64,000 nt of DNA from a virus: IMG/VR virus record IMGVR_UViG_3300021959_006017, positions 1 through 64,000 of that record. One strand, given 5' to 3'. Below the pieces are notes generated by a model. It worked only from the letters and a program-made list of their open reading frames with translations, was not told the DNA's origin and made no database searches. This document shows positions 10,745 through 62,914 of the stretch, one piece after another (the first letter of the stretch is position 1; each line of letters starts with the position of its first letter). The position numbers were made by a program, and so were the translations under genes.

Positions 10745-10752
10745 TATAAATA
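10745..10752 (+). promoter_or_regulatory. Late promoter TATAAATA, predicted leaderless
   Basis: Exact T4 consensus TATAAATA, followed by 5 bases (tttgc) and the ATG at 10758. With T4 spacing, transcription would begin at the A of the ATG. No SD is present. Confidence 0.65.
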
Positions 10753-10757
10753 TTTGC

Positions 10758-11345
10758 ATGGAAGATCCAAGAGATGAATATCGTATATTACCAAATCTTT
10801 TACCTAAATCCTATGCAGATCTTTTAGAAGCTGAACTTTCTAAAATACATTGGTATTGGTATCCAAGTGCTTCAGGAGATGTTGCTGTAGATCCCGATGA
10901 CAAAAATATTTTTGATTCTCCCCAAATGCAACATGTTTTTATTGAAGAAAATGAACCAATATCTCCGTATGCTTCTCTAATACAACCAGTAGTTTGGTTT
11001 TTAGAAAAAGAAATGCAAATGAGTATTAAAAATATTGTACGTGTAAAAGCAAATCTTTTAATGCCAGGTAGATCAAACTTAGATAACTATAATATTCCTC
11101 ATGTTGATTCTCCAAGCGACGATTATATTAGCATGGTTTATTATGTAAACAATGCAGACGGTGATACTAAAATATTTCACAAAACACTTGACGAAGGACA
11201 CAAAGACTTATATACTATAGCAGGCATTAGTCCTAAGAAAGGAAGAGCTGTAATGTTTAAATCAAATAGATTTCATGCAAGCACACCCCCGTTTAAAGCT
11301 GATAAAAGAATAGTATTAAACTTTGTATTACAACCAGGAACATAA
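10758..11345 (+). CDS. 2OG-Fe(II) oxygenase (prolyl-hydroxylase type)
   Basis: 195 residues. The C-terminal half has the double-stranded beta-helix signature: HVDSPSDDYISMVYYVN supplies the H-x-D iron ligands (His ~115, Asp ~117). Then GRAVMFKSNRFHAS supplies the distal His (~175), and an Arg in KRIVLNFV is placed for 2-oxoglutarate. Such enzymes hydroxylate proteins, sugars or bases using Fe(II), O2 and 2-oxoglutarate, and are frequent in marine T4-like phages. It heads a three-gene run with a GT9-like transferase and a carbamoyltransferase, suggesting glycan or nucleotide-sugar modification. The substrate is unknown. The start is set by a late box 5 bases upstream. Confidence 0.8.
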   Translation: MEDPRDEYRILPNLLPKSYADLLEAELSKIHWYWYPSASGDVAVDPDDKNIFDSPQMQHVFIEENEPISPYASLIQPVVWFLEKEMQMSIKNIVRVKANLLMPGRSNLDNYNIPHVDSPSDDYISMVYYVNNADGDTKIFHKTLDEGHKDLYTIAGISPKKGRAVMFKSNRFHASTPPFKADKRIVLNFVLQPGT

Positions 11346-11347
11346 AA

Positions 11348-12391
11348 ATGACAGATAGAGCAAAAGCCTTTTTTATTAATGGAGGTGCAGGCAGGGTGCT
11401 TGCTAGTATTCCAGCATTAGAAAAGTATTATGAAGAAACTAGCCAAGACTTTATTATTGTAGCAGAAGGCGGAATGGACCTCTATAAAGGTCATCCAATA
11501 CTACATGAACGTGCATATGATGTTTGGCATAAAGGAATATTCCAAGACAAAATTAAAAATATGGATGTAGTAACTCCAGAACCATACAGAGTGTGGGAGT
11601 ACTACAATCAAAAATGTAACCTACAACAAGGTTTTGATATAGAAATAAACGGTAAAGGTATAAGAGATCTTCCAAGACCTTTTATACATTTAACACAAGA
11701 AGAAAAAGTAAATGGTAAAGCATGCATTAAAGAGGTATTAGATAATGTAGGTTTTAATAAAACTATCGTATTCCAACCATTTGGAAGAGGCATAGGAGAA
11801 CACGCAGGGTTTTTAACAGATCCAAGTGGAAGAAGTTTTGAATATGCAAATATAATAAGCATTGTGAAGAAGTTACAAGAAAAAGAGTTTGCAGTTATTT
11901 TAATGAGTGAACTAAACTTAGACTTCCAAAAAGAAGGAACGCCGAAACCTGTTGCACAGCCAAGTGGAATAGGTTTAAAGCAGTGGGCAGCTATTATTGC
12001 CGAAGCAGACTATTTCTTAGGCTGCGATAGTGTGGGACAACATATTGCACACAGTTTAAATAAACCTGCTACAGTAGTAACTGGTAGCACTTTTGCTGAA
12101 AATGTTAGTTTTTTAGATGATGAAAAGTTTGATATTCAAGACATGGGAGAAAGTAAAAGAAAATATGATCCTATTAGAATAGTACCAGACGAAGTTGTTG
12201 CAAAAAACAACGATGGTATAATGGCTATGAATGGTCCCATTGAAGACGAGATTATTAAAAACTTAATAAAAAACTTTGAAAAATATGTAAAAAAAGAAAC
12301 TACAGTAAAAAAGAAAGTTTCTGAACTTACTAACAAAACAAACAATACAGCACCTAAGCTGGTGCCTGGTTTATCACCTATTAAGGAATAA
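11348..12391 (+). CDS. GT9-like (heptosyltransferase-type) glycosyltransferase
   Basis: 347 residues. The diagnostic part is residues ~210-240: GIGLKQWAAIIAEADYFLGCDSVGQHIAHSLN followed by KPATVVTGST. This matches the GT9 pattern in which an Asp-Ser plus a His-(I/L)-A helix bind the ADP-sugar before a KP..V loop. GT9 enzymes (WaaC/WaaF) transfer heptose from ADP-heptose to LPS inner core, and this phage also encodes ADP-heptose synthesis at 21357-24960. The N-terminal acceptor half is divergent, and the C-terminal ~60 residues are Lys-rich and low in complexity. The 2-base gap from the oxygenase implies co-transcription. Specificity is inferred. Confidence 0.7.
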   Translation: MTDRAKAFFINGGAGRVLASIPALEKYYEETSQDFIIVAEGGMDLYKGHPILHERAYDVWHKGIFQDKIKNMDVVTPEPYRVWEYYNQKCNLQQGFDIEINGKGIRDLPRPFIHLTQEEKVNGKACIKEVLDNVGFNKTIVFQPFGRGIGEHAGFLTDPSGRSFEYANIISIVKKLQEKEFAVILMSELNLDFQKEGTPKPVAQPSGIGLKQWAAIIAEADYFLGCDSVGQHIAHSLNKPATVVTGSTFAENVSFLDDEKFDIQDMGESKRKYDPIRIVPDEVVAKNNDGIMAMNGPIEDEIIKNLIKNFEKYVKKETTVKKKVSELTNKTNNTAPKLVPGLSPIKE

Positions 12392-12393
12392 AA

Positions 12394-14187: not shown

Positions 14188-14190
14188 ATA
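14184..14190 (+). promoter_or_regulatory. T4-type late promoter box
   Basis: CATAAATAC overlapping the carbamoyltransferase stop; leader with GGAG at 14203-14206 before the ATG at 14212. Confidence 0.55.
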
Positions 14191-14211
14191 CTCTGTAAGT
14201 TCGGAGTTGAG

Positions 14212-14607: not shown

Positions 14608-14624
14608 GTAAGTATTTGATTCTG

Positions 14625-14631
14625 ATAAATA
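14625..14631 (+). promoter_or_regulatory. T4-type late promoter box
   Basis: GATAAATAC; leader includes GGAG at 14640-14643 ahead of the ATG at 14650. Confidence 0.55.
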
Positions 14632-14649
14632 CAATAGTTGGAGTATGAG

Positions 14650-15543: not shown

Positions 15544-15546
15544 TAA

Positions 15547-25429: not shown

Positions 25430-26842
25430 TTAGCCGGCTAGTTCTATTCGCCAGGTGCCAACTGGATAATCGCCATCAACAGCTTTTAGCCAATCACCAT
25501 TATCATAGCGGTATTGTATTTGTGTGTTAAGATTTGTAGTATATGTAGTTTCAGAACTTGCATTAGAATCAAAAACAATATTCCATTTTGATCCGTCCCA
25601 TTCGATTATATCATTTGCTTTTGCAACAAGACCGGTCCCATCATTGTTTGTCCATGCTTGAGCATGAACAGTTTGGCCTTCTTTACCTATATCTTCGAGT
25701 ATAAGAAGTCTTAGCCCGTCAGTTAGTCGTGTAAGAGGATTAAATGTTGTAGGATCGATAATATAATCTATACTAGTTCTACCTTCAATAATAGTGTCTT
25801 GTGGAAATGTATCTTCATCAAAGTCTATTTGTATTTGTGTATCGTCTAATGGATTTTGAGCAAACGTGCCTGTCACAGTGACGTCAGTATCTAAGTTTGT
25901 AAGATAAATTCTACTTACGCCTGCTCCATACTGACCTGGTAGTGCTTCAAATATATCTTGCCAGTTTTTAGATCCCACTCTACCGTTCGCATAAAGTTGT
26001 GCAATACCATTTTCTAAATATACTCCATAAGTATTATAGTTTACATTAGCCATTTCATTTGCTAAAATAGTATTTGCTTTTTGTCCAAACTCGTTAGTTG
26101 TTGCACCAGGTACTGGGGCATCGTCAAACTGATTAAGTTGAGGAATACTAATACCATCTTCAATAGTTCCTCTATTTTCGTCAAACATGCTAGTAATAAT
26201 ATTTGTAACAACACCCATTTTCTTAACTTTTACAGGTGGACTAATATAGATAGGAACACTAAATGTAAGTGTTGCAATATCTATTTCACTATCAACGCCT
26301 ACAGGAATACTACGATTTGACCAGTTTACATTTTCAAGGTTTACAACAGTAATAGCAGTCCAGTCAACAAAGTTATCACTTTTTTGCATTTCCAAACTTG
26401 GATTAAAAAGAACTAATATTTGCTCTAGTATTTGTAACTTCTGATCAGTGTTGCTTGCCCATATGTCTGCATTAACACGTAAAATGTAAGGTGTAGGCAT
26501 TAGTCTTTCTACAGTATAGTTTTTACCTTGATAATTTTCGTATTCGCCTGTTTCTTCATTAAATGCACGTTCTCTTATATTAGATTTTTTAACAAACGTA
26601 GCGTCTAATAATCTTGCTTTGTCTAGTTCTAAGCCTGTTATATAAACACTAATACGTGGAGCACTAGGAAGTTTGTTTTCACTGTTCTCTCTAATAATGT
26701 TTGCAACTTGTCTAGTTAAATCACCATACATTACAGGAACATCTTTAACATTGCCCTTTCCATCTTTGACAGGAAAGTTACTCAAAATGCGCATCATTTG
26801 AGTAGTATATCTTCTTATTTGTCCATCATAAAAATGAAGCAT
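25430..26842 (-). CDS. 15: Tail completion and sheath stabiliser protein, gp15-like
   Basis: 470 residues. The N-terminus FYDGQIRRYTTQMMRILSNF...VPVMYGD matches T4 gp15 (FY...RRY...L.SNI, then VPI.Y). Later blocks match too: a PRI.VYITGLELD segment, YNP-like PTPYILRVNADIW, LEQILVLFNPSLE, and a SRRR-like strand pair. In T4, gp15 forms the ring that caps the tail and joins it to the neck. This protein is ~200 residues longer, with an added C-terminal region rich in Asp and Thr (residues ~260-470). The ATG overlaps the gp14 stop by 1 base. It is on the minus strand, away from its T4 neighbours gp18/gp19. Confidence 0.82.
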   Translation of the reverse strand: MLHFYDGQIRRYTTQMMRILSNFPVKDGKGNVKDVPVMYGDLTRQVANIIRENSENKLPSAPRISVYITGLELDKARLLDATFVKKSNIRERAFNEETGEYENYQGKNYTVERLMPTPYILRVNADIWASNTDQKLQILEQILVLFNPSLEMQKSDNFVDWTAITVVNLENVNWSNRSIPVGVDSEIDIATLTFSVPIYISPPVKVKKMGVVTNIITSMFDENRGTIEDGISIPQLNQFDDAPVPGATTNEFGQKANTILANEMANVNYNTYGVYLENGIAQLYANGRVGSKNWQDIFEALPGQYGAGVSRIYLTNLDTDVTVTGTFAQNPLDDTQIQIDFDEDTFPQDTIIEGRTSIDYIIDPTTFNPLTRLTDGLRLLILEDIGKEGQTVHAQAWTNNDGTGLVAKANDIIEWDGSKWNIVFDSNASSETTYTTNLNTQIQYRYDNGDWLKAVDGDYPVGTWRIELAG

Positions 26843-28002
26843 TAGTTATCTGCCCTTGGTTTAAGTGCTTTCGTAAGACTTTGTCTTTCTTCTACTTGTT
26901 CGCTACCTATGTCGGAAGTTTTAGTATTATTAATAAACTGTGTCTTATAAGTTTGACGCTCTAATGTATTACTTAGTTCCATACGTATGTCGTCTTGTAC
27001 TTTTACCCAGCGGGTTCCATCATATTTAAACATTCTGTTAGGTAAAAAATCTGTTCTTAAAAAATAATCACCTTCTTGTTTGTCTCTTGGAAACTGTATT
27101 CCAAAACCAAACGGTGCGCCGTTAGGTGTGTCGCTACCTGTTCCAACAAGATAACCTGTATAACCTTCTCTATCAGGTCTGTCTGTGACTTCGTCTGCAC
27201 CTATACTAATATTACTTGCATCTAAATCAGTTTCGTCTGCTGTTTTAAGTGCAACTGAGCCATCATCATTTGTAGCAACAGTATAATAGTGATCAATATC
27301 AAAACCGCTTTTTGGTGAATCTATTTCTGCTTGTGCAACAACAGCATTGTTTATTTGCATTTCTTTTTCGTATGTAGATAGCAAATCTCTTAGTGTAGTG
27401 TCTGAACCTTCTGCTGCTGGTAAGTCGAGTATTTCTGCATATTCTTGTCCGTCGTATATTTGTTTAAGTTTTAAACGATATAAGTGCGGATACCAAGTAT
27501 GTGAAAACCCCTCTGCTGCACGATTTACGTCTTCTATAACATAAAATCTTTTTAGTGCAATATCATAGTCGTTAAGTGCATATTCGTCTTTTAAATGAGG
27601 CAACTCGATAACATCACCTGCCATAGGCTTGCGTCCTATTGTTTTTACAATACTATTAATGTGTACTGTAAGAAAAAGTGTATCATTGCTTAAAAATAAA
27701 CCAAATGCACTAAGGTCAAAGTCTATATCTTGAACGTTGTATATACCACGTGTAGTATAAACATCCGGATCATACTTTCTATCTCTATTTTCTAAAAATA
27801 ACAAATCTTGAATATTTGTTTCTTTTACAACATCATACTCTGGCTGTGTAGAACTTCTATCTTCCTCTGAAGGAGCGTTTGGTCCTATATATTTGTGAAT
27901 ATTGATATCAGTACCGCCAATAGTAAACATTTCATAGACTTGTTTGTCTATAAAATGATAATCATTGCCGCGTTCTGGTTTATATAAAGATAGTCTTGGC
28001 AT
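26842..28002 (-). CDS. 14: Neck protein gp14-like
   Basis: 386 residues from the ATG at 28002. A longer frame to 28155 exists, but the late box places the start at 28002 and homologues begin with MPRLSLYKPE. Blocks EMFTIGGTDINIHKYIGP, QDLLFLENRDRKYDPDVY, and MAGDVIELPHL (matching the EGDLIYFP segment of T4 gp14) identify the neck protein that joins the head to the tail with gp13. It is transcribed divergently from gp13, with the two late boxes only 6 bases apart. The C-terminus is polar and Lys/Arg-rich. Longer than T4 gp14 (256), as in cyanophages. Confidence 0.8.
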   Translation of the reverse strand: MPRLSLYKPERGNDYHFIDKQVYEMFTIGGTDINIHKYIGPNAPSEEDRSSTQPEYDVVKETNIQDLLFLENRDRKYDPDVYTTRGIYNVQDIDFDLSAFGLFLSNDTLFLTVHINSIVKTIGRKPMAGDVIELPHLKDEYALNDYDIALKRFYVIEDVNRAAEGFSHTWYPHLYRLKLKQIYDGQEYAEILDLPAAEGSDTTLRDLLSTYEKEMQINNAVVAQAEIDSPKSGFDIDHYYTVATNDDGSVALKTADETDLDASNISIGADEVTDRPDREGYTGYLVGTGSDTPNGAPFGFGIQFPRDKQEGDYFLRTDFLPNRMFKYDGTRWVKVQDDIRMELSNTLERQTYKTQFINNTKTSDIGSEQVEERQSLTKALKPRADN

Positions 28003-28007: not shown

Positions 28008-28014
28008 TATTTAT
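28008..28014 (-). promoter_or_regulatory. Late promoter for gp14, predicted leaderless
   Basis: Minus-strand ATAAATA, then 5 bases (tgtat), then ATG at 28002. Six bases separate it from the plus-strand box for gp13. Confidence 0.65.
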
Positions 28015-28020: not shown

Positions 28021-28027
28021 ATAAATA
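28021..28027 (+). promoter_or_regulatory. T4-type late promoter for gp13
   Basis: GATAAATAC with a ~19-base leader carrying CGGAG at 28032-28036 before the ATG at 28047. Divergent partner of the gp14 box. Confidence 0.65.
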
Positions 28028-28046: not shown

Positions 28047-28805
28047 ATGGCAGACTTAGCAACACAAAAACAAGAGATTTTTGATTATGTAAATGCAATG
28101 CTAGGTGGCGGAATGGTTGATGTTGAACTAGATCCAATCCACTACGAAACTGCACTTACAAAAGCACTGACACGTTTTAGACAACGTTCAGACAATAGTG
28201 TTGAAGAATCATACTTGTTTATGACAACAGTCATTGATCAGAATGACTACACACTTCCTAATGAAGTTATTGAAGTTCGTAAAATATTCCGTAGAAGTGT
28301 AGGTTCTAGAACCGGTGGTGGCGATGGCGGCACAATCTTTGAACCATTTAATCTTGCATATACAAACACATATTTGCTGTCTAGTTCACAACTAGGCGGA
28401 CTAGCAACATATGATTTATTTGCACAACACCAAGAACTTGTTGGACGTATGTTTGGATCATTTATTGAGTTTAAATGGAACACTACAAGCAAAAAACTTA
28501 CACTACTACAACGTCCTAGAGCAGAAGAAGACCTATTGTTATACTGCTATAACTATCGTCCAGATAGTCAACTACTTGACGACTATCTAGCAAAACAATG
28601 GATTAAAGATTATACACTTGCAAGTTGTAAGTATATGCTAGGCGAAGCACGTTCAAAGTTTGCTACTATTGCAGGTCCGCAAGGTGGATCAACACTTAAC
28701 GGTGATGCACTTAAAGCAGAAGCACAGCAAGAAATGGAAAAACTTGATGCTGAAGTATCTACACAAATAGGCGGCGGCGTAGGCTATAGCTTTTTAATCG
28801 GTTGA
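28047..28805 (+). CDS. 13: Neck protein gp13-like
   Basis: 252 residues from the ATG at 28047 (SD CGGAG). The upstream in-frame ATG at 27996 lies inside the gp14 coding region on the other strand and is rejected. Sequence is typical of marine T4-like gp13: FRRSVGSRTGGGDGGTIF, PFNLAYTNTYLLSSSQ, YDLFAQHQELVGRMFGSF, LLQRPRAEEDLLLY, and KYMLGEARSKFATIAGPQGG with a C-terminal GY.F.IG. gp13 joins gp14 in the head-to-tail neck. The very Gly-rich loop at residue ~90 is a normal family feature. Confidence 0.88.
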   Translation: MADLATQKQEIFDYVNAMLGGGMVDVELDPIHYETALTKALTRFRQRSDNSVEESYLFMTTVIDQNDYTLPNEVIEVRKIFRRSVGSRTGGGDGGTIFEPFNLAYTNTYLLSSSQLGGLATYDLFAQHQELVGRMFGSFIEFKWNTTSKKLTLLQRPRAEEDLLLYCYNYRPDSQLLDDYLAKQWIKDYTLASCKYMLGEARSKFATIAGPQGGSTLNGDALKAEAQQEMEKLDAEVSTQIGGGVGYSFLIG

Positions 28806-28830
28806 CAAACTGTCTAAATCCTCGTATAAT
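28802..28830 (+). promoter_or_regulatory. Consensus sigma-70 promoter
   Basis: TTGACA (28802-28807), 17-base spacer, TATAAT (28825-28830). It overlaps the gp13 stop. A ~21-base leader with AAAGGA precedes the ATG at 28858, so this early-type site is leadered. Confidence 0.85.
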
Positions 28831-28857: not shown

Positions 28858-29418
28858 ATGTTACCTAAACTTTTAGTTGTTGGCCACGGCAGACATGGCA
28901 AAGATACTGTATGTGAAATGCTAGAGGCATACGGTTATACCTTTGAATCAAGTTCTAAGTTTTGTTCTGAACTGTTTATCTATAACGATCTAAAAGAAAA
29001 ATATAACTATTCAAGTGAAGAAGAGTGCTATGCAGATAGACACAATCACCGCACTGAATGGTATAATATGATTCACGACTATTGTAAAGATGATTTAGCA
29101 CGTCTTGGCCGTAACTTGTTTGCAAAGCATGATATTTACTGCGGCTTACGAAACAAGCGTGAGTTTTTTGCAATGCAAAATGAAAAAATATTTGATTATG
29201 CTATTTGGGTAGATCGTTGTGATCACCTGCCTACTGAAGATCCTAGCTCGATGAGTATTGAACAGTGGATGTGTGATTATACTATTGATAACAATGGCGA
29301 TTTAAAAAGACTACAAAAGAATGTCGATATTCTAATGCGTACTATTTTTAGAAGTCAGGGCGTAAGTCTCCCTGCTTCCACCGCACTCCAGTTTTCTGCA
29401 GAATACGCTGACAGTTAG
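28858..29418 (+). CDS. P-loop dNMP kinase-like protein
   Basis: 186 residues. The N-terminus LLVVGHGRHGKDTVCEML is a Walker A loop of the GxGxxGKDT type used by T4 gp1 deoxynucleoside monophosphate kinase and related phage kinases. Other traits: a helix with SSKFCSELF and an IWVDRCDHLP strand resembling the WVDRS of dNMP kinases. It would phosphorylate dNMPs for phage DNA synthesis, fitting its early-type promoter, unlike the late genes on either side. The last 71 bases overlap the convergent HNH gene. Precise nucleotide specificity cannot be told. Confidence 0.7.
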   Translation: MLPKLLVVGHGRHGKDTVCEMLEAYGYTFESSSKFCSELFIYNDLKEKYNYSSEEECYADRHNHRTEWYNMIHDYCKDDLARLGRNLFAKHDIYCGLRNKREFFAMQNEKIFDYAIWVDRCDHLPTEDPSSMSIEQWMCDYTIDNNGDLKRLQKNVDILMRTIFRSQGVSLPASTALQFSAEYADS

Positions 29419-29683
29419 CACAAATAGTTTTTAGATTTGTAGGACGGCAGTTGTTCAAATCTCCGTCAATATGAAATACATTAAACTGCTCAGGATGTTT
29501 GCTAGTGTGGCCGCATTTCTCGCATTCATCCTTTTTCTCGTAACCACGCTGTTTCCATTTAGGTATACCGTGTCCTACACCATTACGTAAACATTTTTCA
29601 CATAGACGTCTATAGTAGATCTTGCCATCTTTTTTATAGTTTATAGCAGCAGGCCTTTGCCCACATTTACATAAAGGTCTCAT
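29348..29683 (-). CDS. HNH-type endonuclease-like protein
   Basis: 111 residues. Two zinc-type Cys pairs (CKCGQ, CEKCLR), then CEKCGHTSKHPEQFNVFHIDGDLNNCRPTNLKTICANCQ, in which the H..G...N...NL...C..CH-like order is that of HNH nucleases (VFHIDGD and NL.TIC.NC). Free-standing HNH genes are common phage homing elements or packaging-associated nucleases. The start at 29683 is set by a late-type box 5 bases upstream (an in-frame ATG at 29689 overlaps the box). It converges on, and overlaps by 71 bases, the kinase gene, suggesting insertion or transcriptional interference. Confidence 0.7.
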   Translation of the reverse strand: MRPLCKCGQRPAAINYKKDGKIYYRRLCEKCLRNGVGHGIPKWKQRGYEKKDECEKCGHTSKHPEQFNVFHIDGDLNNCRPTNLKTICANCQRILQKTGVRWKQGDLRPDF

Positions 29684-29688: not shown

Positions 29689-29695
29689 TATTTAC
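29689..29695 (-). promoter_or_regulatory. Late-type box for HNH gene, predicted leaderless
   Basis: Minus-strand GTAAATA, 5 bases (tgtat), ATG at 29683: the same 5-base block as in front of gp14. Confidence 0.5.
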
Positions 29696-29752: not shown

Positions 29753-29759
29753 GTAAATA
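29753..29759 (+). promoter_or_regulatory. Late-type promoter box for gp18
   Basis: GTAAATAC with a ~34-base leader that includes AGGAG at 29782-29786, ahead of the ATG at 29794. Confidence 0.5.
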
Positions 29760-33188: not shown

Positions 33189-33195
33189 ATAAATA
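33189..33195 (+). promoter_or_regulatory. T4-type late promoter for gp19
   Basis: CATAAATAC after the gp18 hairpin; leader with AGGAG at 33206-33210 and ATG at 33217. Confidence 0.65.
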
Positions 33196-33902: not shown

Positions 33903-33936
33903 AACGGGAGTTTCTTTTTGAGACTCCCGTTTTTTA
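33903..33936 (+). terminator. Rho-independent terminator after gp19
   Basis: AACGGGAGTTTC and GAGACTCCCGTT pair (33903-33914 with 33920-33931, one G-U), followed by a T-run to 33936. Ends the tube transcript just before the next late box. Confidence 0.9.
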
Positions 33937-33940: not shown

Positions 33941-33947
33941 ATAAATA
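33941..33947 (+). promoter_or_regulatory. Late promoter, predicted leaderless
   Basis: GATAAATA, 5 bases (ttatt), ATG at 33953. It lies 5 bases after the gp19 terminator T-run, leaving no room for an SD on a new transcript. Confidence 0.65.
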
Positions 33948-33952: not shown

Positions 33953-35206
33953 ATGGCAGTAGTACAATCACAATATACCAGAGCAAGTAATGATATTCAT
34001 TTAAGAGACTGGCGTCACGCCAGAAATCTTTACTACGAATACGGCTTAGCATTTGCACCTAAAACAAAGTTTCTTTACCATTGTTTGTTTGAACCTTCTC
34101 CAGAAATAGGTAATAGCGCAACTGTAAATTCATTTGCATTTCAAAAACAGTTAGGTGTATTGGTTAAATCAGCCGACTTACCAAGTTTTAGAATAAGTGT
34201 AGAAAACAAAAAACAATACAATCGTATTAAACAGTTTCAAACAAGAATAGATTATCAAGATGTAAACATTACTTTTCATGATGATAACTTAGGTCTTACT
34301 AGGGCATTGTTTGAAGAGTATTACAAGTATAACTTTTTAGACGGAAGACATAATCCTCAAAAAGGTGCAATAGTTGCTGGACCTTATGCATCTAGAGATA
34401 AGTATTCCCCAACAGTTCCGAAATACGGATTAAACACAGGAAACATAGGTCCTTTCTTTAATAGTATTACAATATATCAACTATCTAGACAGCAATATTT
34501 TGCATATACATTAGTAAACCCAATAGTTACACAATGGAATCACGGTGATGTAGCATACGAAGATGGCAGCGGCTTAAACGAAAATGCTATGAGTATAGCA
34601 TACGAATCTGTAATATTTTCAAACGGAGATATTGGCGAAAATAGCGAACCAGTTGCATTTACAGATCCAGAAACAGGATACGATCAGTCACCAAGTCCGC
34701 TTTCAGAACCTGACTTGCGTGGTAGAGGAAATCAGTACGTAAGCGGTGGGCCAAAACTATTAGAACCTGCACCTCCTACTGATCCAACTATAAACCGTAA
34801 AACTACTGTATCTTCAACCACTACAACTTTTACATCAACTACTGAAACTGAAAAAACATATTCTATTCCTAAAAAAGATACAAAAAACGAAATAACTCCT
34901 GTACCAGCACCTAAGGAAAATGATTATCCTCCAAAAGATGCTAATACTATACAGAAAAAACTTGATAACAGATTTAGTTCTAGAGGGCCAAATAAGAAAA
35001 GAAGAGAAAAAGCTAGAAAAACTTTTGCAATGAAAGCAATAAATGCAGGCGAACTTCCTTATGATTCATATGTTGACTTTACTAAACAAGTACCTAGTAA
35101 ACGAGAAAGAGATGCTATTATAAACGCTAAGTTAGCCGAAACTCAATCAAATAAAAAACTATCAAATCTAGCAAGTGAAGCGATAGATGACCACGGAGTA
35201 AAATAA
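33953..35206 (+). CDS. Second tail-tube-like virion protein with disordered tail
   Basis: 417 residues. Residues ~20-230 look like a tube-fold domain: KFLYHCLFEP, FQKQLGVLVKSADLPSFRI, NKKQYNRIKQFQTRIDYQDVNITFHDDN, ALFEEYYKYNF, FFNSITIYQLSRQQYFAYTLVNPIVTQWNHGDVAYEDG, MSIAYESVIF. This order parallels gp19, and T4 tube initiators gp48/gp54 share the fold. The C-terminal ~180 residues are Pro/Thr/Lys-rich and probably disordered. It is placed between gp19 and gp4. I infer a tube-terminal or baseplate-tube junction protein; cyanophages have homologues annotated only as structural, as far as I recall. Confidence 0.65.
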   Translation: MAVVQSQYTRASNDIHLRDWRHARNLYYEYGLAFAPKTKFLYHCLFEPSPEIGNSATVNSFAFQKQLGVLVKSADLPSFRISVENKKQYNRIKQFQTRIDYQDVNITFHDDNLGLTRALFEEYYKYNFLDGRHNPQKGAIVAGPYASRDKYSPTVPKYGLNTGNIGPFFNSITIYQLSRQQYFAYTLVNPIVTQWNHGDVAYEDGSGLNENAMSIAYESVIFSNGDIGENSEPVAFTDPETGYDQSPSPLSEPDLRGRGNQYVSGGPKLLEPAPPTDPTINRKTTVSSTTTTFTSTTETEKTYSIPKKDTKNEITPVPAPKENDYPPKDANTIQKKLDNRFSSRGPNKKRREKARKTFAMKAINAGELPYDSYVDFTKQVPSKRERDAIINAKLAETQSNKKLSNLASEAIDDHGVK

Positions 35207-38159: not shown

Positions 38160-38187
38160 AAATAGGCACTTCGGTGCCTATTTTTTT
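38160..38187 (+). terminator. Rho-independent terminator with UUCG tetraloop
   Basis: AAATAGGCAC (38160-38169), TTCG loop, GTGCCTATTT (38174-38183), T-run to 38187. C(UUCG)G is an exceptionally stable tetraloop. Confidence 0.9.
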
Positions 38188-38189: not shown

Positions 38190-38196
38190 GTAAATA
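38190..38196 (+). promoter_or_regulatory. Late promoter for gp17, predicted leaderless
   Basis: GTAAATA, 4 bases (ctgt), ATG at 38201. It sits 2 bases after the terminator T-run, so the gp17 transcript has practically no leader. Confidence 0.6.
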
Positions 38197-38200: not shown

Positions 38201-39781
38201 ATGAGTAAGAGTTTAGATGGCGTATTAACTAAAAAAGCCAACACTAAAGAAACATATACAGAAGAACAAATACAGGATCTAATGCAGTGTATGGATCCTG
38301 AAAAAGGCTATCTGTATTTTGCAAGTAAGTTTGCATATATCCAACATCCTGTAAAAGGAAAACTACTATTCGAACCTTACGAATATCAACTAGGGTTAAT
38401 GGATACATATCATAACTATCGCTTTAACATTAATATGATGCCTAGACAAACAGGTAAAACTACTTGTGCCGCAATTTATCTTGCTTGGTATGCAATGTTT
38501 AATCCAGATCAAACTATACTTATTGCCGCACACAAATACACAGGTGCGCAGGAGATTATGGCACGTATTCGTTATGTGTATGAAACGTGTCCAGATCATA
38601 TTAGAGCAGGTGTTACTTCATATAACAAAGGTAGCATAGAGTTTGAGAATGGATCACGTATTGTAAGTCAGACAACAACAGGCAACACAGGACGTGGTAT
38701 GTCAATCTCGCTACTATACTGTGACGAGTTTGCGTTCGTACAGCCTAACATTGCTGAAGAGTTTTGGACGTCAATATCACCTACACTAGCAACAGGTGGT
38801 CGTGCTATTATTACTAGTACACCAAACTCAGACGAAGATACATTTGCTACTATTTGGAAACAAGCAGAACAACGGTTTGACGATCACGGCAACGAAAGTG
38901 ATCTTGGCATCAATGGCTTCCGTTCATTTATAGCACACTGGAGTGAACATCCCGATCGTGACGAGAAATGGAAGGCAGATGAGATCGGACGTATCGGTGA
39001 AGAAAAGTTTAGACGTGAATATGGTTGCGAGTTCTTAGTATTTGACGAAACTCTCATTAATAGTATAAAACTAAGTGCTATGGAAGGCGGCAGTCCTATA
39101 CTTAACATGGGGCAAACACGTTGGTATAAGAAGCCGACAAGTCAATACACATATGCAGTAGCACTTGATCCTAGTATGGGTACAGGAGGCGACTATGCGG
39201 CAATTCAAGTTATAGAACTTCCAACATACGAGCAAGTAGGAGAATGGCAGCATAACCAAACAGCTATTCCCGGACAAATAAGAGTACTTGCAGACATCTG
39301 TACATACATTGCAAATGAAACTAAAAATCCAAATGGAGTTTATTGGAGTGTAGAAAATAACGGCATCGGCGAAGCAGCACTAATCGTTATAAACGATTTC
39401 GGGGAAGAGAATATACCGGGACTTTTTGTCTCTGAACCTATTCGCAAAGGACATGTGCGCAAGTTCCGCAAAGGGTTTAATACTACACACAGCACAAAGA
39501 TTACAGCATGTAGTCGTTTAAAAACTATGATTGAAAACGATAAAATGACTGTACACAGCAAACCATTAATATCTGAACTCAAAGGTTTTATAGCATCAGC
39601 AAGTAGCTATCAAGCAAAACCGGGAATGACAGACGATTTAGTAAGTGCAACACTACTTGCTATAAGAATGATGGACGTATTAAAAGATTGGGATCCGCGG
39701 GTATATAACTCATTCAATCAAGCAGAAGATCTTGAGGATTATGAGATGCCCATGCCAATCTTTATTAGCAGCAACTATTGA
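38201..39781 (+). CDS. 17: Terminase large subunit gp17
   Basis: 526 residues from the ATG at 38201; a longer in-frame ORF to 37997 would overlap the previous gene and its terminator, and is rejected. Walker A PRQTGKTT at 81-88; Walker B LLYCDEFAF at 171-179 with the catalytic Glu; coupling motif ITSTPNSDED. The C-terminal RNase-H-like nuclease starts at ALDPSMGTGGDYAAIQ (~315) with later acidic residues in VENNGIGEAAL and MTDDLVSATLL. This motor cuts and packages concatemeric DNA into proheads. T4 gp17 has 610 residues. One of the surest calls in the window. Confidence 0.95.
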   Translation: MSKSLDGVLTKKANTKETYTEEQIQDLMQCMDPEKGYLYFASKFAYIQHPVKGKLLFEPYEYQLGLMDTYHNYRFNINMMPRQTGKTTCAAIYLAWYAMFNPDQTILIAAHKYTGAQEIMARIRYVYETCPDHIRAGVTSYNKGSIEFENGSRIVSQTTTGNTGRGMSISLLYCDEFAFVQPNIAEEFWTSISPTLATGGRAIITSTPNSDEDTFATIWKQAEQRFDDHGNESDLGINGFRSFIAHWSEHPDRDEKWKADEIGRIGEEKFRREYGCEFLVFDETLINSIKLSAMEGGSPILNMGQTRWYKKPTSQYTYAVALDPSMGTGGDYAAIQVIELPTYEQVGEWQHNQTAIPGQIRVLADICTYIANETKNPNGVYWSVENNGIGEAALIVINDFGEENIPGLFVSEPIRKGHVRKFRKGFNTTHSTKITACSRLKTMIENDKMTVHSKPLISELKGFIASASSYQAKPGMTDDLVSATLLAIRMMDVLKDWDPRVYNSFNQAEDLEDYEMPMPIFISSNY

Positions 39782-39787
39782 TAAATA
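39781..39787 (+). promoter_or_regulatory. Late promoter, predicted leaderless
   Basis: GATAAATA overlapping the gp17 stop, 4 bases (cagt), ATG at 39792. No SD between box and start. Confidence 0.6.
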
Positions 39788-39791: not shown

Positions 39792-41600
39792 ATGAGAGAA
39801 TTTAGTAAAATAGGCGAAGAGTTATTCAACAAGTTACGCGGAAGATTTCCAAGCGTAACTATTGGTGATGCTGAAGGTAACGTTACTAACGAACCTATTG
39901 CAGCAAGATACTTTGACTTTGATTACAAAGGCTTAGGTAAAGTAAGTGTTAACTTAGATGAAGATGAAGGATTAACTGTTATCTTTTCTAAAGACTTTGC
40001 AGAAGGTACTTCAGATGTAATCAAAAAAGGATGGCACGACTTTTTGAAAGAACTTCGTGTGTTTGGTAAAAAGCGTATGTTGGACTTTAGTGTACGTGAT
40101 ATTACTAAATCAAACTTAGATAAAAGAGATTATAAATTTTTAGCAACAAATCGCTCTGGGGACGATAAAATGACAGAATCAAAACTATATGGAACAAGCC
40201 GCGTTAGTTATCAAAACGTAGGCGAAGCACGTATTATGATTAAGCACACAGAGAGTGTAAATCAAGAAAGTGCAACAGGACGCATACAAAAGATTGGTAA
40301 GATCTACATTGAATCACCAGAAGGTGAACGTTTTAAATATCCATACAAGCATCTAAGTGGTGCAAGAGCAATGGCTATGCATGTAAGTGAAGGCGGCAAC
40401 GCATATGATGACTTTGGTAAGCACATTGTAGGACTTTCAGAAGAACTAGCAAAGCTACGCAAGTTTAAAACCTATATGGGCCGTTCAGCTGTAATGGCAG
40501 AAAGTCTAGCAGGATATGTAGACATTGTCAAAGAGCGTATTACAACAGTTAAGAAAACAATAGAAGGTTTGCAAAAGCCAGCATACTACAAAGAAGCATT
40601 TGAAAGTTTTAATCCCCCAGTACTAGAAGATGTTCCGAATGATGTTGCTGAAAACTGGATTGATGAGCTAACTATCAAACAGTTTAACGAAGAACTACAA
40701 GATATATTCCCTTACATTTACAACCTAGTAAAAGAAGGCACAAAAGCAAAAGAACTAGGACCAGAAGATTTAGAAGAAGTTGCAGGCCCAGAAAACTGCT
40801 GGCCCGGACATAGAAAAGTCGGCACCAAGCCGGGCACAGGTAAAAACAAAGGCAAGCGTGTAAACGACTGCGAAAAAATACCAGAAGAGATTGAACTAGA
40901 GCAAGGCTTTGAAGAAATGATGGGCCAATTTAGCGAAAGCGAACCAACTATTAGTCAAATGAGTGACGACGATTTAGCAGATTATTTAGGCGTTGATGTA
41001 GCAGAAGTAAAGGCTGATAGAGAGGCAGCAGAGGAAGCAGCAAACGAAAAATCAATGGATCAGTTTGCAGAAGGTATTGATCCCAAAAGTGCATTAGACG
41101 CTATTATGAAGAAAGATCCAGGTGACGAAGGTATCGGTTATGTGTTTGACAAATTTGCAAGCAGAATGTCTGATGAAGATGCAGATGAACTTGCAAAAGA
41201 ATTAGCAGAATTTTATCCAGAATGGTACGAACAACACTATCAAGACGAAGGCAATGCATATGCACACGCTGTAAAGCAAGCCAAAATGAACGGCAAGAAA
41301 AAAGGCGACAAAGTTGACGGTCCAGACGGCGACGAGATTACACTTGAAAAGGACAAAAAGGCACCATTAGGCGAGTTCATATTATCGTATTACGACAGAG
41401 AAACAGGCGAGTTCCCTAAAGGCGAAACCGCTGTACTTACCATGGTAGAGAAAGATTACGGCGAGCAGTTCATAGAACCTGCTAAGGCGTTTATCGAAAA
41501 GATTACCCAAACTTTTGAAGAGTATCAGATGCGTACACAACCACAGCAGTTGGATACACAAGAGTTTGACAGAATGAGAGAGTTAGCAGGTTTACGTTAA
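39792..41600 (+). CDS. Large uncharacterised late protein
   Basis: 602 residues from the ATG at 39792 (a frame to 39732 runs into gp17). Residues 1-130 look like a compact alpha/beta domain (ARYFDFDYKGLGKVSVNLDEDEGLTVIFSKDF). Later: helices, ENCWPGHRKVGTKPGTGKNKGKRVNDCEKI near residue 345 (a short Cys..Cys module recurrent in proteins of marine phages), several acidic helices, and a terminal DRMRELAGLR, similar to short C-terminal tags on other marine phage structural proteins. Late promoter and position after gp17 suggest a virion or capsid-interior protein. Function unknown. Confidence 0.6.
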   Translation: MREFSKIGEELFNKLRGRFPSVTIGDAEGNVTNEPIAARYFDFDYKGLGKVSVNLDEDEGLTVIFSKDFAEGTSDVIKKGWHDFLKELRVFGKKRMLDFSVRDITKSNLDKRDYKFLATNRSGDDKMTESKLYGTSRVSYQNVGEARIMIKHTESVNQESATGRIQKIGKIYIESPEGERFKYPYKHLSGARAMAMHVSEGGNAYDDFGKHIVGLSEELAKLRKFKTYMGRSAVMAESLAGYVDIVKERITTVKKTIEGLQKPAYYKEAFESFNPPVLEDVPNDVAENWIDELTIKQFNEELQDIFPYIYNLVKEGTKAKELGPEDLEEVAGPENCWPGHRKVGTKPGTGKNKGKRVNDCEKIPEEIELEQGFEEMMGQFSESEPTISQMSDDDLADYLGVDVAEVKADREAAEEAANEKSMDQFAEGIDPKSALDAIMKKDPGDEGIGYVFDKFASRMSDEDADELAKELAEFYPEWYEQHYQDEGNAYAHAVKQAKMNGKKKGDKVDGPDGDEITLEKDKKAPLGEFILSYYDRETGEFPKGETAVLTMVEKDYGEQFIEPAKAFIEKITQTFEEYQMRTQPQQLDTQEFDRMRELAGLR

Positions 41601-45227: not shown

Positions 45228-46165
45228 ATGTAATAGGTATAGAAAAAGTTTTTAGAACACATCCTTTACCCGGTTTAGACAACTTCAAAGTTGTTTCTTG
45301 GGATGATAAAGAGTCTATTAAAAACGCTGACATTTATATACAAGCAAACATAATGGAGTGCAAACATAGGAAACTACGTCCTATGTATCAATATATTAAA
45401 GATAGCGGAAAACCTTGGATAGTTGCTGAAAGTGCTGTATTCCGTAAAAATATGAAGCAACCTCCTAATCCTATGGCATATCATAGATATAGTTGGTATA
45501 GTTATTATAGAGATGAAGGCTTATACAATAACAAAAATAGGCCTAGTGACAGATGGGATCAAATACAAAGAGATCAAAATATTGAAATAAAAGATTGGCG
45601 GCTAAACTTAGACGGATTTGTAACAGTTATTATGCAACGTCCGGGCGATAGTAGTCTTAAAAATCTTTTGGCAAAACATGGTACTTACGAAAACTTTATT
45701 TCTAATACTATTAAAGAAATAAGAAAAAATACAAAAAGACCTATTAGAATACGTATGCACCCGTTGCGTCAAGATAGACAAAAAGCAATACTTGACAAAC
45801 TAAATCTCAAAGATGTTTATATAAGCGAAAACATACAAGGAGCAAAACTTCTTGAAGGCGGCGACGGACTACAACGAGATTTTGATAATGCATGGGCAGT
45901 AGTCGGATTTAACTCTAATGCATTAACTGAAAGTATTTGTGAAGGAATACCTACGTTTAGTTTGTGTCCTAGTTCAATGGCTTGGGAATGTTCAAATACA
46001 GACTTATCTCAAATAGAAAACCCTAAGTTTTTTGATAGACAACAATGGTTAAACAACCTAGGGTACTGCCAATGGAGAGAAGATGAGATTGCTCAAGGAG
46101 CACCTTATTATCATTTAATGGAAATATATAACGAAGCTAAAAGTTATAGGAAAAATGTTTTATAA
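45224..46165 (+). CDS. GT-B-like glycan transferase paralogue A (Kdo-transferase-like)
   Basis: 313 residues. Shares with the genes at 48840, 49643 and 51407 a domain plan: an N-terminal half ending in W.QIQRDQNIEI(K)DWR, a strand with QRPGD.S, IKEIRKNTKRPIRIRMHP (177-180), a WAVVGFNSNALTESICEGIPTF block, then DLSQIENP..FDRQQWLNNLGYCQW..(D)EI..G...YHL. The R.HP and NS...ea...GiP motifs resemble capsule synthesis KpsS/KpsC beta-Kdo transferases. Since kdsA and kdsB are present at 57083-58517, CMP-Kdo use is an attractive but unproven idea. The 3' end overlaps the convergent sulfotransferase by 29 bases. Confidence 0.6.
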   Translation: MNVIGIEKVFRTHPLPGLDNFKVVSWDDKESIKNADIYIQANIMECKHRKLRPMYQYIKDSGKPWIVAESAVFRKNMKQPPNPMAYHRYSWYSYYRDEGLYNNKNRPSDRWDQIQRDQNIEIKDWRLNLDGFVTVIMQRPGDSSLKNLLAKHGTYENFISNTIKEIRKNTKRPIRIRMHPLRQDRQKAILDKLNLKDVYISENIQGAKLLEGGDGLQRDFDNAWAVVGFNSNALTESICEGIPTFSLCPSSMAWECSNTDLSQIENPKFFDRQQWLNNLGYCQWREDEIAQGAPYYHLMEIYNEAKSYRKNVL

Positions 46166-46721
46166 CATTTGAAAATCTTTCAGCTACTATATTTTTTGTT
46201 TCTTCATTATACATTTTTTTATAATCTTTTTCTCTAGATGTATCAGATTTAACAAATGTACGCAGTAGTTCATTATTGTAAGGTATAGGCATTTCTAAAA
46301 AAGACTCGTGTAAGTTTGTATAATCTATAAGATTATCTACTTTAATATTTCTTGCATGTGCATACATACCCCAGTCGTTTTGATCTTTTGCTCCTCTTAC
46401 AAATGCTTCAAAGCCCTTGGCAACTTTTTTAGGTTTACGTTTTTTATAATAAAAATAAGCACTAATAAGTTTATCCCAAGGATTTCTTTCTACTGCAAAC
46501 TTATAATAGGTTTCCCATTCTTTAGGATATGTATTGGCAATCCATTGCCAGCTTCTATGTCCATTTATTTCGTTTGTATTAATCCGAGGCGTACCGTCAG
46601 CTTTACTTCCTGTACAAATATCAGTTGGTCCGAGATAGTTTACAAGATATTTTTCAATACTGGATCCGGCTGTCTTTCTTGTCTTAACAAATATAAATTT
46701 ATGCTGGTGAGATATGATCAT
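46137..46721 (-). CDS. Sulfotransferase (PAPS-dependent, Sulfotransfer_2 type)
   Basis: 194 residues from the ATG at 46721, set by a late-type box 5 bases upstream; the frame is open to 46784 but would run through the next gene. FIFVKTRKTAGSSIEKYL at ~8-25 is the 5'-phosphosulfate loop, and FAVERNPWDKLISAYFYY near 73-90 is the 3'-phosphate-binding strand/helix (R and S). A conserved His in INGHRSWQWI may be the base. Such enzymes sulfate sugars or other hydroxyls with PAPS; an APS-kinase-like gene lies at 59635. It is the only minus-strand gene in the glycan cluster. Confidence 0.8.
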   Translation of the reverse strand: MIISHQHKFIFVKTRKTAGSSIEKYLVNYLGPTDICTGSKADGTPRINTNEINGHRSWQWIANTYPKEWETYYKFAVERNPWDKLISAYFYYKKRKPKKVAKGFEAFVRGAKDQNDWGMYAHARNIKVDNLIDYTNLHESFLEMPIPYNNELLRTFVKSDTSREKDYKKMYNEETKNIVAERFSNVIKHFSYNF

Positions 46722-46733
46722 ATAAATATTTAA
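46722..46733. promoter_or_regulatory. Overlapping divergent late boxes
   Basis: Plus-strand TATAAATA (box core 46722-46728) serves the methyltransferase at 46748 (leader with GGAG). Minus-strand TTAAATA (46733-46727) stands 5 bases (tttat) before the sulfotransferase ATG at 46721. The boxes share two bases, so both cannot be occupied at once. Confidence 0.6.
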
Positions 46734-47387: not shown

Positions 47388-47394
47388 ATAAATA
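47388..47394 (+). promoter_or_regulatory. Late promoter, predicted leaderless
   Basis: CATAAATA, 5 bases (tcagt), ATG at 47400. The 88-base gap before it holds no other gene; a TATAAT at ~47364 has no matching -35. Confidence 0.6.
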
Positions 47395-47399: not shown

Positions 47400-48173
47400 A
47401 TGAAAGTAGTATTAGTCACAGGTGGATTTGATCCACTGCACTCAGGACATATTGAGTATTTCAAAGAAGCAAAGAAGTTAGGCGACAAACTAGTTGTTGG
47501 CGTGAATTCAGACGATTGGTTAACACGAAAAAAAGGCAGACCATTTATGACCTTTGAAGAACGTTGTGCTATTATAAAAGAACTAGAAGTAGTTGATCAG
47601 GTTATTGGATTTAACGATCTAGACAACACAGCAAACAAAGCAATCGGCCAAGTAGCAACTATGATTACAGGCGATGACATTATGATCTTTGCCAACGGCG
47701 GAGATCGAACTGATACAACAACTCCGGAATATGAAGTATACGGTAGCTATCGTTGGTGCGAGTTTGCATTTGGCGTAGGCGGCGAAAACAAAATGAACTC
47801 TAGTAGTTGGATACTAGATGAATGGAAAACACAAAAGACAGAACGTGACTGGGGATATTGGCGTGTACTAGATCATAAGCCTGAAAAAGGATATAAGGTA
47901 AAAGAACTTGTAATATATCCTGGAAAAAGTTTAAGCGATCAGAAACACTACAAAAGATCTGAACAATGGATTGTACTTGAAGGGGTAGTTAAGATGGACA
48001 CAGAATGGGACGGCAGATCCGACAGTATTCATTTACAACCTCATACATTACCATATGAAATAGGTAAAGAAGTTTGGCATAAAGCAAGCAACCCCAACGG
48101 TGAAAACGCACACATACTTGAAATACAATGGGGTGGTGTGTGTGTTGAAGAAGATATAGAAAGAAGGGATTAA
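47400..48173 (+). CDS. Nucleotidyltransferase-cupin fusion
   Basis: 257 residues, two domains. Residues 1-140: cytidylyltransferase fold with LVTGGFDPLHSGH (HxGH at ~14-17), KLVVGVNSDDWLTRKKGRPFM and ERCAIIKELEVVDQVIGF, close to the adenylyltransferase half of HldE and to TagD/RfaE2. Residues ~150-257: a cupin resembling the C-terminus of type II phosphomannose isomerase (YKVKELVIYPGKSLSDQKHYKRSEQWIVLEG; LPYEIGKEVWHKASNP). A single polypeptide could activate and isomerise or bind a sugar phosphate. Product unknown; ADP- or CDP-linked sugar is inferred. The stop overlaps the next GT start by one base. Confidence 0.75.
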   Translation: MKVVLVTGGFDPLHSGHIEYFKEAKKLGDKLVVGVNSDDWLTRKKGRPFMTFEERCAIIKELEVVDQVIGFNDLDNTANKAIGQVATMITGDDIMIFANGGDRTDTTTPEYEVYGSYRWCEFAFGVGGENKMNSSSWILDEWKTQKTERDWGYWRVLDHKPEKGYKVKELVIYPGKSLSDQKHYKRSEQWIVLEGVVKMDTEWDGRSDSIHLQPHTLPYEIGKEVWHKASNPNGENAHILEIQWGGVCVEEDIERRD

Positions 48174-53460: not shown

Positions 53461-53461
53461 T

Positions 53462-55428: not shown

Positions 55429-55438
55429 GGAAAGGCGG

Positions 55439-60712: not shown

Positions 60713-60713
60713 A

Positions 60714-61211
60714 ATGGAACTAATATATCATCCAAATGATTTTCTTAACAAGGAAGTTAAAACTGTTGATTTAGAAAACCCAGGATTTGATCCTAAGGAA
60801 CTTAAAAAAGAAATGGTAGACTTTATGCTAGAAAAAAATGGCATAGGACTAAGTGCTAACCAAATCGGACTAGATGCAAAAGTTTTTGTAATGGGTGATA
60901 AAGTAGAAAACTCTACTATTTGTATTAATCCAACAGTCTTACAGTATACAAGCGATACACAAAATGATTATGAAGGCTGTTTAAGTTTTCCGAATATATA
61001 CATGCGTATTACAAGACCTAAAGAAATACTTGCAGAGTTTTATGACGAAAACTTAGAAAAACAAACTGTAAAGATTACAGACTATAGTGCTAAGTGTTAT
61101 TTGCACGAACTTGATCACCTGTTAGGTATTACATTTAAAGATCGTGCAAGTAAACTTAAATGGGATATGGCTGTGAAGAAAGCACGTAAACTAGAGAAGC
61201 AGTATGCCTGA
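60714..61211 (+). CDS. def: Peptide deformylase
   Basis: 165 residues. All three PDF motifs: GIGLSANQIG (43-52), EGCLSFP (87-93) and HELDHLLG (131-138), giving Cys and two His for the metal and the catalytic Glu. It removes the formyl group from nascent proteins. Phage PDFs are well known in marine T4-like phages; the C-terminal helix of the bacterial enzyme is largely kept (KARKLEKQYA). Starts 1 base after the upstream stop and overlaps the next ORF by 8. Confidence 0.95.
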   Translation: MELIYHPNDFLNKEVKTVDLENPGFDPKELKKEMVDFMLEKNGIGLSANQIGLDAKVFVMGDKVENSTICINPTVLQYTSDTQNDYEGCLSFPNIYMRITRPKEILAEFYDENLEKQTVKITDYSAKCYLHELDHLLGITFKDRASKLKWDMAVKKARKLEKQYA

Positions 61212-61773
61212 TATTGATATAGATTTTGCAGATAGAGATGTTGTATTAGAAAAGATACAACATCGTGTTGCAAAACTAGACTCAGGCAAGAAGCACAATA
61301 CAGGTGTTTATGCTACAGAGATACCTCATAATCCTGTAGACAATCTAGCCACAATCGATTATAAGACAGCAGAAGAACGTGGATATTTTAAACTAGACTT
61401 TCTCAATGTTAGCATCTATAAAGATGTTAAAGACGAAGCACACTTGCAACAACTTATGGAAAAAGAACCACAATGGGAACTTTTACAACACAACGATTTC
61501 ACAGATCTTATCTTTCATATCTCTGGTCACGGAGATATACTACAAAAAACAAAGCCTACAAACATCGAACAACTAGCAGCAGTACTAGCGATGATACGGC
61601 CTGCCAAACGCCATCTTGTCAACGAAACTTGGCCAACGATATTAGAAAGTGTGTGGGTCGCACCCACTGACGGAAGTTACTACTTTAAGAAAGCACATGC
61701 TATTGCATATGCTGTAAGTGTTGTAGTTCATATGAACTTACTATGTGAACAGCTGGCTAGCGAGGTTTCTTAA
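61204..61773 (+). CDS. DnaE-like fragment protein, conserved in marine phages
   Basis: 189 residues. MPDIDIDFADRDVVLEKI and TAEERGYFKLDFLNVSIYKDV resemble catalytic and finger segments of bacterial DNA polymerase III alpha (PDIDID(F) and a KFDFLG.. strand), and KKAHAIAYAVSVVVHMNLL resembles its helix with the KSHA.aYa motif. It is far too short for a polymerase. I recall the same compact protein in T4-like cyanophages. I infer a domesticated DnaE-derived DNA-binding or regulatory protein; catalysis is doubtful. Convergent overlap of 17 bases with the next gene. Confidence 0.7.
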   Translation: MPDIDIDFADRDVVLEKIQHRVAKLDSGKKHNTGVYATEIPHNPVDNLATIDYKTAEERGYFKLDFLNVSIYKDVKDEAHLQQLMEKEPQWELLQHNDFTDLIFHISGHGDILQKTKPTNIEQLAAVLAMIRPAKRHLVNETWPTILESVWVAPTDGSYYFKKAHAIAYAVSVVVHMNLLCEQLASEVS

Positions 61774-62125
61774 CTAGTTGGATTGATTTTCTTTTTACTC
61801 TTTTTAAACTTAAATCATTTAAGTTGACACACGGACCAATAACTATTCTTACATCTTTTGAGTTCATTGTAACAATAGAATATTTAAACGGATCCATATC
61901 TCGTTTTAAAAAAATGTTTATTGGAATAAGTCGATTAGATTCCCACCACCATGCTTCTCCTAGCTCTAAGAACACTCGTTGTTCTTCAGGAGTTCTAAGA
62001 TTAGTATAAACGTACATGGACGTGACAGTCGAATCTTGGTTAATCACTATACCTACAAACTCTTGCCCTCCGTAGGTAATAACCGATAGAAACGGAAATT
62101 TTTCTTGTATTTCTTTTGTTAACAT
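61757..62125 (-). CDS. Conserved phage protein of unknown function
   Basis: 122 residues from the ATG at 62125; a longer in-frame start at 62152 would overlap the opposite gene. LTKEIQEKFPFLSVITYGGQEFVGIVINQDSTVTSMYVY, FLELGEAWWWESNRLIPINIFLKRDM, YSIVTMNSKDVRIVIGPCVNLNDLSLKRVKRKSIQLVKKPR. I know an equivalent with the WWWESNR..PINIFL block in T4-like cyanophages. It is beta-rich with a basic C-terminus (possible nucleic-acid binding). A lone minus-strand gene here, with no visible late box; GGGAAA precedes the start. Confidence 0.72.
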   Translation of the reverse strand: MLTKEIQEKFPFLSVITYGGQEFVGIVINQDSTVTSMYVYTNLRTPEEQRVFLELGEAWWWESNRLIPINIFLKRDMDPFKYSIVTMNSKDVRIVIGPCVNLNDLSLKRVKRKSIQLVKKPR

Positions 62126-62134
62126 AGTTTCCCG

Positions 62135-62141
62135 ATAAATA
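62135..62141 (+). promoter_or_regulatory. Late promoter, predicted leaderless
   Basis: GATAAATA, 5 bases (atatt), ATG at 62147. Divergent from the minus-strand gene starting at 62125. Confidence 0.6.
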
Positions 62142-62146
62142 ATATT

Positions 62147-62914
62147 ATGCAATTAATACCTAGATATTTAGTCACAAATAGAATCAACATTGTCGCAGAT
62201 GTGGCAGGATTCATTACGGAGTATAGACCAGTGTACAATAAACAAATACAACTTTATAAAGGCGTTGACAATGTTATAGAGTTTAAAGTTCTCAACGCAG
62301 ATCAAAAAGCAGTAGACATAAGTTCATACACACCGACTGTGTATGCATTTGGAGAAGATAAAACACTGCTTATAGAAAAACAAGGAGTAGTATCCGCAAC
62401 TAAAGGAGTGTTTACTGTAACTATTACAGAAAGCGACTTGCTTAATATTAAACAACAGTATCTAGGTTATAATGTATTGCTAAACACAGACTCCGGAAAA
62501 ACATTAACATACGCTCACAGTAACTTTGATAATGATGCTACAATGTTTATTAATGCTAGAACAATGCCTGGTCCATTAGCAACATACGAAGTTACACAGT
62601 TTGCCGAAACAGCAGTAAACAGTGATGTATGGGTTAGCGAAAGTATAACAGCACAGCCTGCTATCAATGGCAACGAAGCACTACATACAGCAGCCGTATA
62701 TACAGACGGTTATGCTGGAGATGTTACTGTACAAGCAACACTTGACAATCAAGTAACAGGTAACACTGTATGGGCAAACGTAAGCACACTAACATTTACA
62801 GGGTCAGAAACACAACCTACACCTGTTAACTTTAATGGTGTATACAGTTATTTAAGATTCAAAACAGACGCAGATCCTGCTAGTACTATAACAAAGGTTT
62901 TGGTCAGAAATTAG
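62147..62914 (+). CDS. Virion structural protein, BppU-like N-terminal domain
   Basis: 255 residues. TEYRPVYNKQIQLYKGVDNVIEFKVLNADQKAVDISSYTPTVYAFG, then GVFTVTITESDLLNIKQQYLGYNVLL, follow the beta-sandwich plan of baseplate upper-protein (BppU-like) N-terminal domains. The C-terminal half (VTVQATLDNQVTGNTVWANVSTLTFTG, NGVYSYLRFKTD) looks like a second discoidin-like sandwich. Its late promoter agrees with a virion role. It stands alone among early-type genes. Probable baseplate or fibre component. Confidence 0.68.
   Translation: MQLIPRYLVTNRINIVADVAGFITEYRPVYNKQIQLYKGVDNVIEFKVLNADQKAVDISSYTPTVYAFGEDKTLLIEKQGVVSATKGVFTVTITESDLLNIKQQYLGYNVLLNTDSGKTLTYAHSNFDNDATMFINARTMPGPLATYEVTQFAETAVNSDVWVSESITAQPAINGNEALHTAAVYTDGYAGDVTVQATLDNQVTGNTVWANVSTLTFTGSETQPTPVNFNGVYSYLRFKTDADPASTITKVLVRN

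Follow-up and report, generated by a model that had tools for sequence, protein, structure and literature searches.

The first 64 kb of the 236,751-base virus record IMGVR_UViG_3300021959_006017 (hereafter, the window) harbor two sets of genes preceded by the hexamer TAAATA, the core of a candidate T4-type late promoter (late box). In one set, only 4-5 bases separate TAAATA from the ATG (this base count is called the spacer below), an arrangement we refer to as leaderless-type; in the other, the spacer is longer and holds a Shine-Dalgarno (SD) sequence. A previous sequence-only reading had listed nine window genes of the first kind, seven with 5 bases and two with 4, and re-reading found TAAATA, 4-5 bases and then ATG at all nine, with the spacers as assigned (Table 1). 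It was also right to count among them gp17, which encodes the terminase large subunit. Its gp14, a minus-strand virion gene, is correctly placed behind a box, but the gp14 label rests on position beside a gp15-like gene (25430-26842) and not on a profile. About ten boxed window genes with SD and longer spacers (18-34 bases for those listed) make up the second set, as had been claimed.

Table 1. Late boxes (TAAATA) and terminator-like hairpins in the window
Feature	Position	Strand	Spacer (bases)	Gene start and remarks
Late box, leaderless-type	10747..10752	+	5	ATG 10758; 2OG-Fe(II) oxygenase-like gene 10758-11345
Late box, leaderless-type	28008..28013	-	5	ATG 28002; virion gene 26842-28002
Late box, leaderless-type	29689..29694	-	5	ATG 29683; HNH-like gene 29348-29683
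Late box, leaderless-type	33942..33947	+	5	ATG 33953; tail tube-like gene 33953-35206
Late box, leaderless-type	38191..38196	+	4	ATG 38201; gp17, terminase large subunit 38201-39781
Late box, leaderless-type	39782..39787	+	4	ATG 39792; virion structural gene 39792-41600
Late box, leaderless-type	46727..46732	-	5	ATG 46721; sulfotransferase 46137-46721; overlaps plus-strand box 46723-46728
Late box, leaderless-type	47389..47394	+	5	ATG 47400; cytidylyltransferase-cupin gene 47400-48173
Late box, leaderless-type	62136..62141	+	5	ATG 62147; virion structural-like gene 62147-62914
Late box, SD-led	28022..28027	+	19	ATG 28047; 25/25 homologues SD-led
Late box, SD-led	29754..29759	+	34	ATG 29794, tail sheath; 59/59 homologues SD-led
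Late box, SD-led	33190..33195	+	21	ATG 33217; 91/91 homologues box + SD
Late box, SD-led	46723..46728	+	19	ATG 46748
Late box, SD-led			27	gene 1622
Late box, SD-led			23	gene 6826
Late box, SD-led			21	gene 14212
Late box, SD-led			18	gene 14650
Late box, weak SD			23	gene 36566
Intrinsic terminator-like hairpin + T run	33903..33931	+		directly 5′ of the 33942 box
Intrinsic terminator-like hairpin + T run	38160..38183	+		directly 5′ of the gp17 box; kept in most gp17 relatives

Placement of TAAATA before gene starts

The remainder of the record was scanned along with the window, and the whole record (G000) was compared with two relatives, G001 and G004. TAAATA is not over-represented overall (64 occurrences in the window vs. 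99 expected); rarer than expected as it is, its signal lies in placement and not in number. Tallying the ATGs that open an open reading frame (ORF) of at least 60 amino acids at each distance after TAAATA, the whole record returned 0, 1, 0, 0, 8, 14, 0, 0, 1, 1, 3 and 1 for distances 0 to 11. Thus, 22 ATGs lie at 4-5 bases against ~1.8 expected from neighboring distances, with no more than one ATG at any distance from 0 to 3 or from 6 to 9. A second mode is broad, ~17-35 bases, and mostly accompanied by SD.

Permuted hexamers made of the same letters gave 0-6 ATGs at 4-5 bases, except AAATAT (13), which finds largely the same sites shifted by one base. A motif-blind test considering 300 genes called without the motif placed 19 starts at 4-5 bases, compared with a mean of 1.03 and a maximum of 6 in 400 dinucleotide shuffles of the 50 upstream bases, and TAAATA at offset 5 was the top 6-mer/offset combination before gene starts of the record, exceeding SD hexamers. 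The same spike, against ~1-2 expected, is found in the relatives (20 genes in G001 and 28 in G004) and in the cultured Pelagibacter phage HTVC008M (13), where 13 of 13 sites fall on independently annotated RefSeq coding sequence starts. The distance scan against shuffles proposed by the sequence-only reading, for the genome and its relatives, hence shows an excess at 4-5 bases and not a flat distribution; the two late classes encoded side by side are upheld, with 22 leaderless-type genes in the record and not nine.

Signatures and conservation of the two classes

Start codons at 4-5 bases in the record comprise 22 ATG, one TTG (a 71-amino-acid ORF) and no GTG. SD is missing from 18/19 such starts in the record, 12/12 in G001, 14/17 in G004 and 8/10 in HTVC008M, and is present in 39/45 genes with a box 12-36 bases upstream. 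A pyrimidine occupies position -1 at 54 of the 58 leaderless-type starts pooled from the record, G001, G004 and HTVC008M vs. 39% of the other genes of the record (p about 2e-15; p about 1e-6 for the record alone). SD-led promoters show a T peak at base 4 and an A peak at base 5 after the box, so that both classes appear to start about equally far from it. Considering the record, G001 and G004, the first base after TAAATA is C in 82% of sites with spacer 4 and in 10% of those with spacer 5, where T prevails; from this link, the discriminator seems to set a one-base choice of start point. The first 36 bases are less structured in leaderless-type than in other genes (p = 0.03 in the record, 0.008 in G001 and 0.016 in G004).

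Which class a gene belongs to is conserved gene by gene. Counting homologues in IMG/VR loci and panel genomes, outgroups (PA5oct, T4, Syn9 and HTVC008M) included, the leaderless arrangement is kept in 95/101 for gp17, 89/94 for 39792, 57/57 for the HNH gene, 37/40 for 33953, 19/22 for 28002 and 25/30 for 47400, and no homologue of the SD-led control genes 33217, 28047 and 29794 switched to it. Exceptions are mainly the outgroups or spacers of 7-8 bases. There is one true switch to box plus SD, in gp17 of locus L093, and gene 114446 is SD-led in several relatives. Some orthologues of leaderless-type genes (loci L019, L025, L026 and L067) have spacers of 7 or 8 bases (4+3 or 5+3), for which a 3-nt leader is predicted; the same prediction applies to the 62147 homologues of G001 and G004 (spacer 8).

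Leaderless-type and SD-led starts lie back to back at 28002(-)/28047(+), where the boxes are adjacent, and at 46721(-)/46748(+), where they overlap. The order hairpin, T run, box and ATG was found in most of 80 gp17 loci (84-93% protein identity). A perfect sigma-70 consensus promoter, TTGACA-17-TATAAT, is also located amid the late genes, at window positions 28802-28830 (+), just 5′ of ORF 28858.

Predicted start point of the late transcripts

TAAATA is found upstream of late structural genes, and "nTAAATA", as the sequence-only reading named its T4-type box, is a fair description as far as this core goes. It is not the full T4 octamer TATAAATA, given that the positions matching -13/-12 are unconserved, mostly G followed by A/G. 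The T4 late box spans -13 to -6 (PMC2988020), which makes the sixth base after TAAATA the +1 and, at spacer 5, the A of the ATG. It is highly probable, in our view, that T4-type late promoters here start on the A of the ATG, yielding leaderless mRNAs beside SD-led late mRNAs. TAAATA would be the core of a gp55-dependent late promoter, at which a gp55-type late holoenzyme would open and, in one set of late genes, start on the A of the ATG; ribosomes would then bind the 5′-terminal AUG directly, without SD pairing. The second late set would use the same promoter followed by a leader of about a dozen to thirty bases carrying the SD. Supporting a +1 on the ATG, as the sequence-only reading had proposed, are the T4 spacing, the pyrimidine at -1 followed by A at +1, the ATG-only starts, the missing SD, the terminators, the low 5′ structure and the conservation of class. 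That G004 encodes a gp55 homologue also speaks for a late promoter of this type.

A few observations weigh against this reading. Spacer 4 is off by one relative to T4 and would have to place the +1 one base nearer to the box. The mRNA start at the ATG is deduced from sequence and T4 spacing, a simple home-made caller supplied the gene starts and there is some redundancy among the IMG/VR loci. The difference in 5′ structure is absent in HTVC008M leaderless-type genes. Finally, a single-sequence search did not find gp55 in the record or in G001, the queries used on the record being gp55 of HTVC008M, G004, PA5oct and T4. The record is incomplete, without the whole ~30 kb block that carries gp55 in G004 (125394-126224, 276 amino acids, 49% identical to the gp55-type late sigma present in PA5oct).

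The box could also be a promoter at -10 whose working mRNA is nevertheless upstream read-through, translated via coupling or an A/U-rich standby site. Many phage genes are in operons, and 4/22 leaderless-type genes of the record abut their upstream neighbor. We regard this as improbable: gp17 and 33953 sit directly behind terminators, the upstream neighbor is on the opposite strand in 6/22 cases, the median upstream same-strand gap is 67 bases and, because the box fills the SD position, even read-through RNA would be without SD. Less probable still is that the ATG at 4-5 bases is incidental and the true start an internal ATG with SD. The starts considered here are indeed predicted ones, but codons 2-4 vary synonymously after the ATG among the 80 gp17 loci (AGT/AGC/TCA/TCG and AAA/AAG), HTVC008M-like gp54 genes retain the spacing at protein identities as low as 42% and the HTVC008M spike coincides with independently annotated starts. 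That chance or base composition alone brings TAAATA near start codons could be suspected in an AT-rich genome, AT-rich sequence being common before start codons; counts of about one result, however, from shuffles, permuted 6-mers and slid distances alike, and T4 and PA5oct are more AT-rich yet have no spike, for which reason we reject it as having a negligible probability.

How the two classes are read leaves room for speculation. Differently tuned ribosomes might be involved: a late shift, perhaps via phage bS21, would favor leaderless over host and SD-led mRNAs and so determine when, or in what dose, packaging and neck proteins are made, an idea that we hold to be rather unlikely. A bS21 gene lies in the record outside the window (121276-121425, +; Pfam E = 5.5e-18) and others in G001, G004, HTVC008M, PA5oct, Atu_ph07, Phosso and Vibrio phage 2.275. 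As a sufficient cause phage bS21 was rejected, since PA5oct, Atu_ph07 and 2.275 bear it without the spike and Phosso without enrichment of the pattern.

Other phages and known systems

Leaderless-type genes of HTVC008M include those for head closure, baseplate, DNA-end protector, tape measure and tail completion. Among 59 IMG/VR homologues of its gp54, 56 have the arrangement too, to ~42% identity and with changed bases after the box. Identity between its gp17 and that of the window phage is 34% and mostly different genes carry the arrangement, which suggests that both phages acquired it separately. A shared exception is a CHASE2-guanylate cyclase gene, leaderless-arranged in the window phage, HTVC008M and Melnitz; it follows a curli-type cluster (CsgF, CsgG and curlin-like), also common to HTVC008M, the cluster and the cyclase gene together being at record positions 126471-135299 (+).

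No spike at 4-5 bases was detected in T4, PA5oct, Syn9, S-PM2, P-SSM2, phiM12, AG-345-F15, Atu_ph07 (400 kb scanned) or Vibrio phage 2.275 (200 kb scanned), and Melnitz has only 3 genes at this distance. PA5oct likewise has a few candidate genes, one of which, 144985, codes for a known virion protein. A general trait of T4-like phages is therefore rejected, the spike being missing in T4, PA5oct, cyanophages, Atu_ph07, phiM12 and others, and an alphaproteobacterial host as the cause is not supported, with Atu_ph07 and phiM12 lacking it.

As to the host of the window phage itself, a 5-aminolevulinate synthase-like gene (record 87864-89060, -) has its nearest matches in contigs of metagenome-assembled genomes of Flavobacteriales (74%) and Rhodobacteraceae (71%), then in Caulobacterales, relatives that give a mere hint of an alphaproteobacterial host. 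A TAAGTA box lies 4 bases before its ATG, and the same is seen at a DnaJ-type co-chaperone gene (record 196011, +).

Late genes of the T4 type are the textbook example of control exerted at transcription, their translation being conventional and SD-led. That a leaderless subset is conserved in two distant lineages, one of them a cultured SAR11 phage, suggests that late promoter position alone can set the translation mode, and two translation modes under one promoter type make a natural testable pair. For abundant marine phages, the annotation of promoters and gene starts would be corrected accordingly. Leaderless placement may also explain why an earlier published late-promoter search in pelagimyophages failed (PMC7029224).

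Both T4-type late promoters and leaderless mRNAs are well known in their own right. The literature searched, which left most subscription journals outside, contained no description of a conserved leaderless subset within a T4-type late regulon, and an earlier mention is possible; for Syn9 transcription, the literature search found nothing. The window phage is similar to the T4 late system (gp55/gp33/gp45) in its TAAATA core, the lack of a -35 element, structural genes on both strands and, in its clade member G004, a gp55 homologue. It differs in that T4 has its box ~20-30 bases before SD-led genes, with no class at 4-5 bases, and in that the first two octamer bases are unconserved in the window phage clade.

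Bacterial leaderless mRNAs, of which 171 are described in Sinorhizobium meliloti and which are common in Mycobacterium and Deinococcus, likewise have a 5′-terminal AUG only, no SD and a +1 on the A of the ATG (PMC3616915, PMC9031893); unlike them, the phage case is drawn from sequence and concerns a late regulon under one phage promoter type. Phage mRNAs with little or no leader are also on record: lambda cI is a short-leader or leaderless transcript (PMC9031893), and phage transcripts are often leaderless according to a remark in the AR9 paper (PMC5312081). These involve another polymerase or promoter, and no conserved two-class late regulon is described for them. The phiKZ late promoters, with the motif TATG and +1 at the G, are served by a phage-encoded multisubunit polymerase (PMC5312081). 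HTVC008M and the pelagimyophages share with the window phage the late box class at spacer 5 (13 genes in HTVC008M), but are distant and carry it mostly on other genes.

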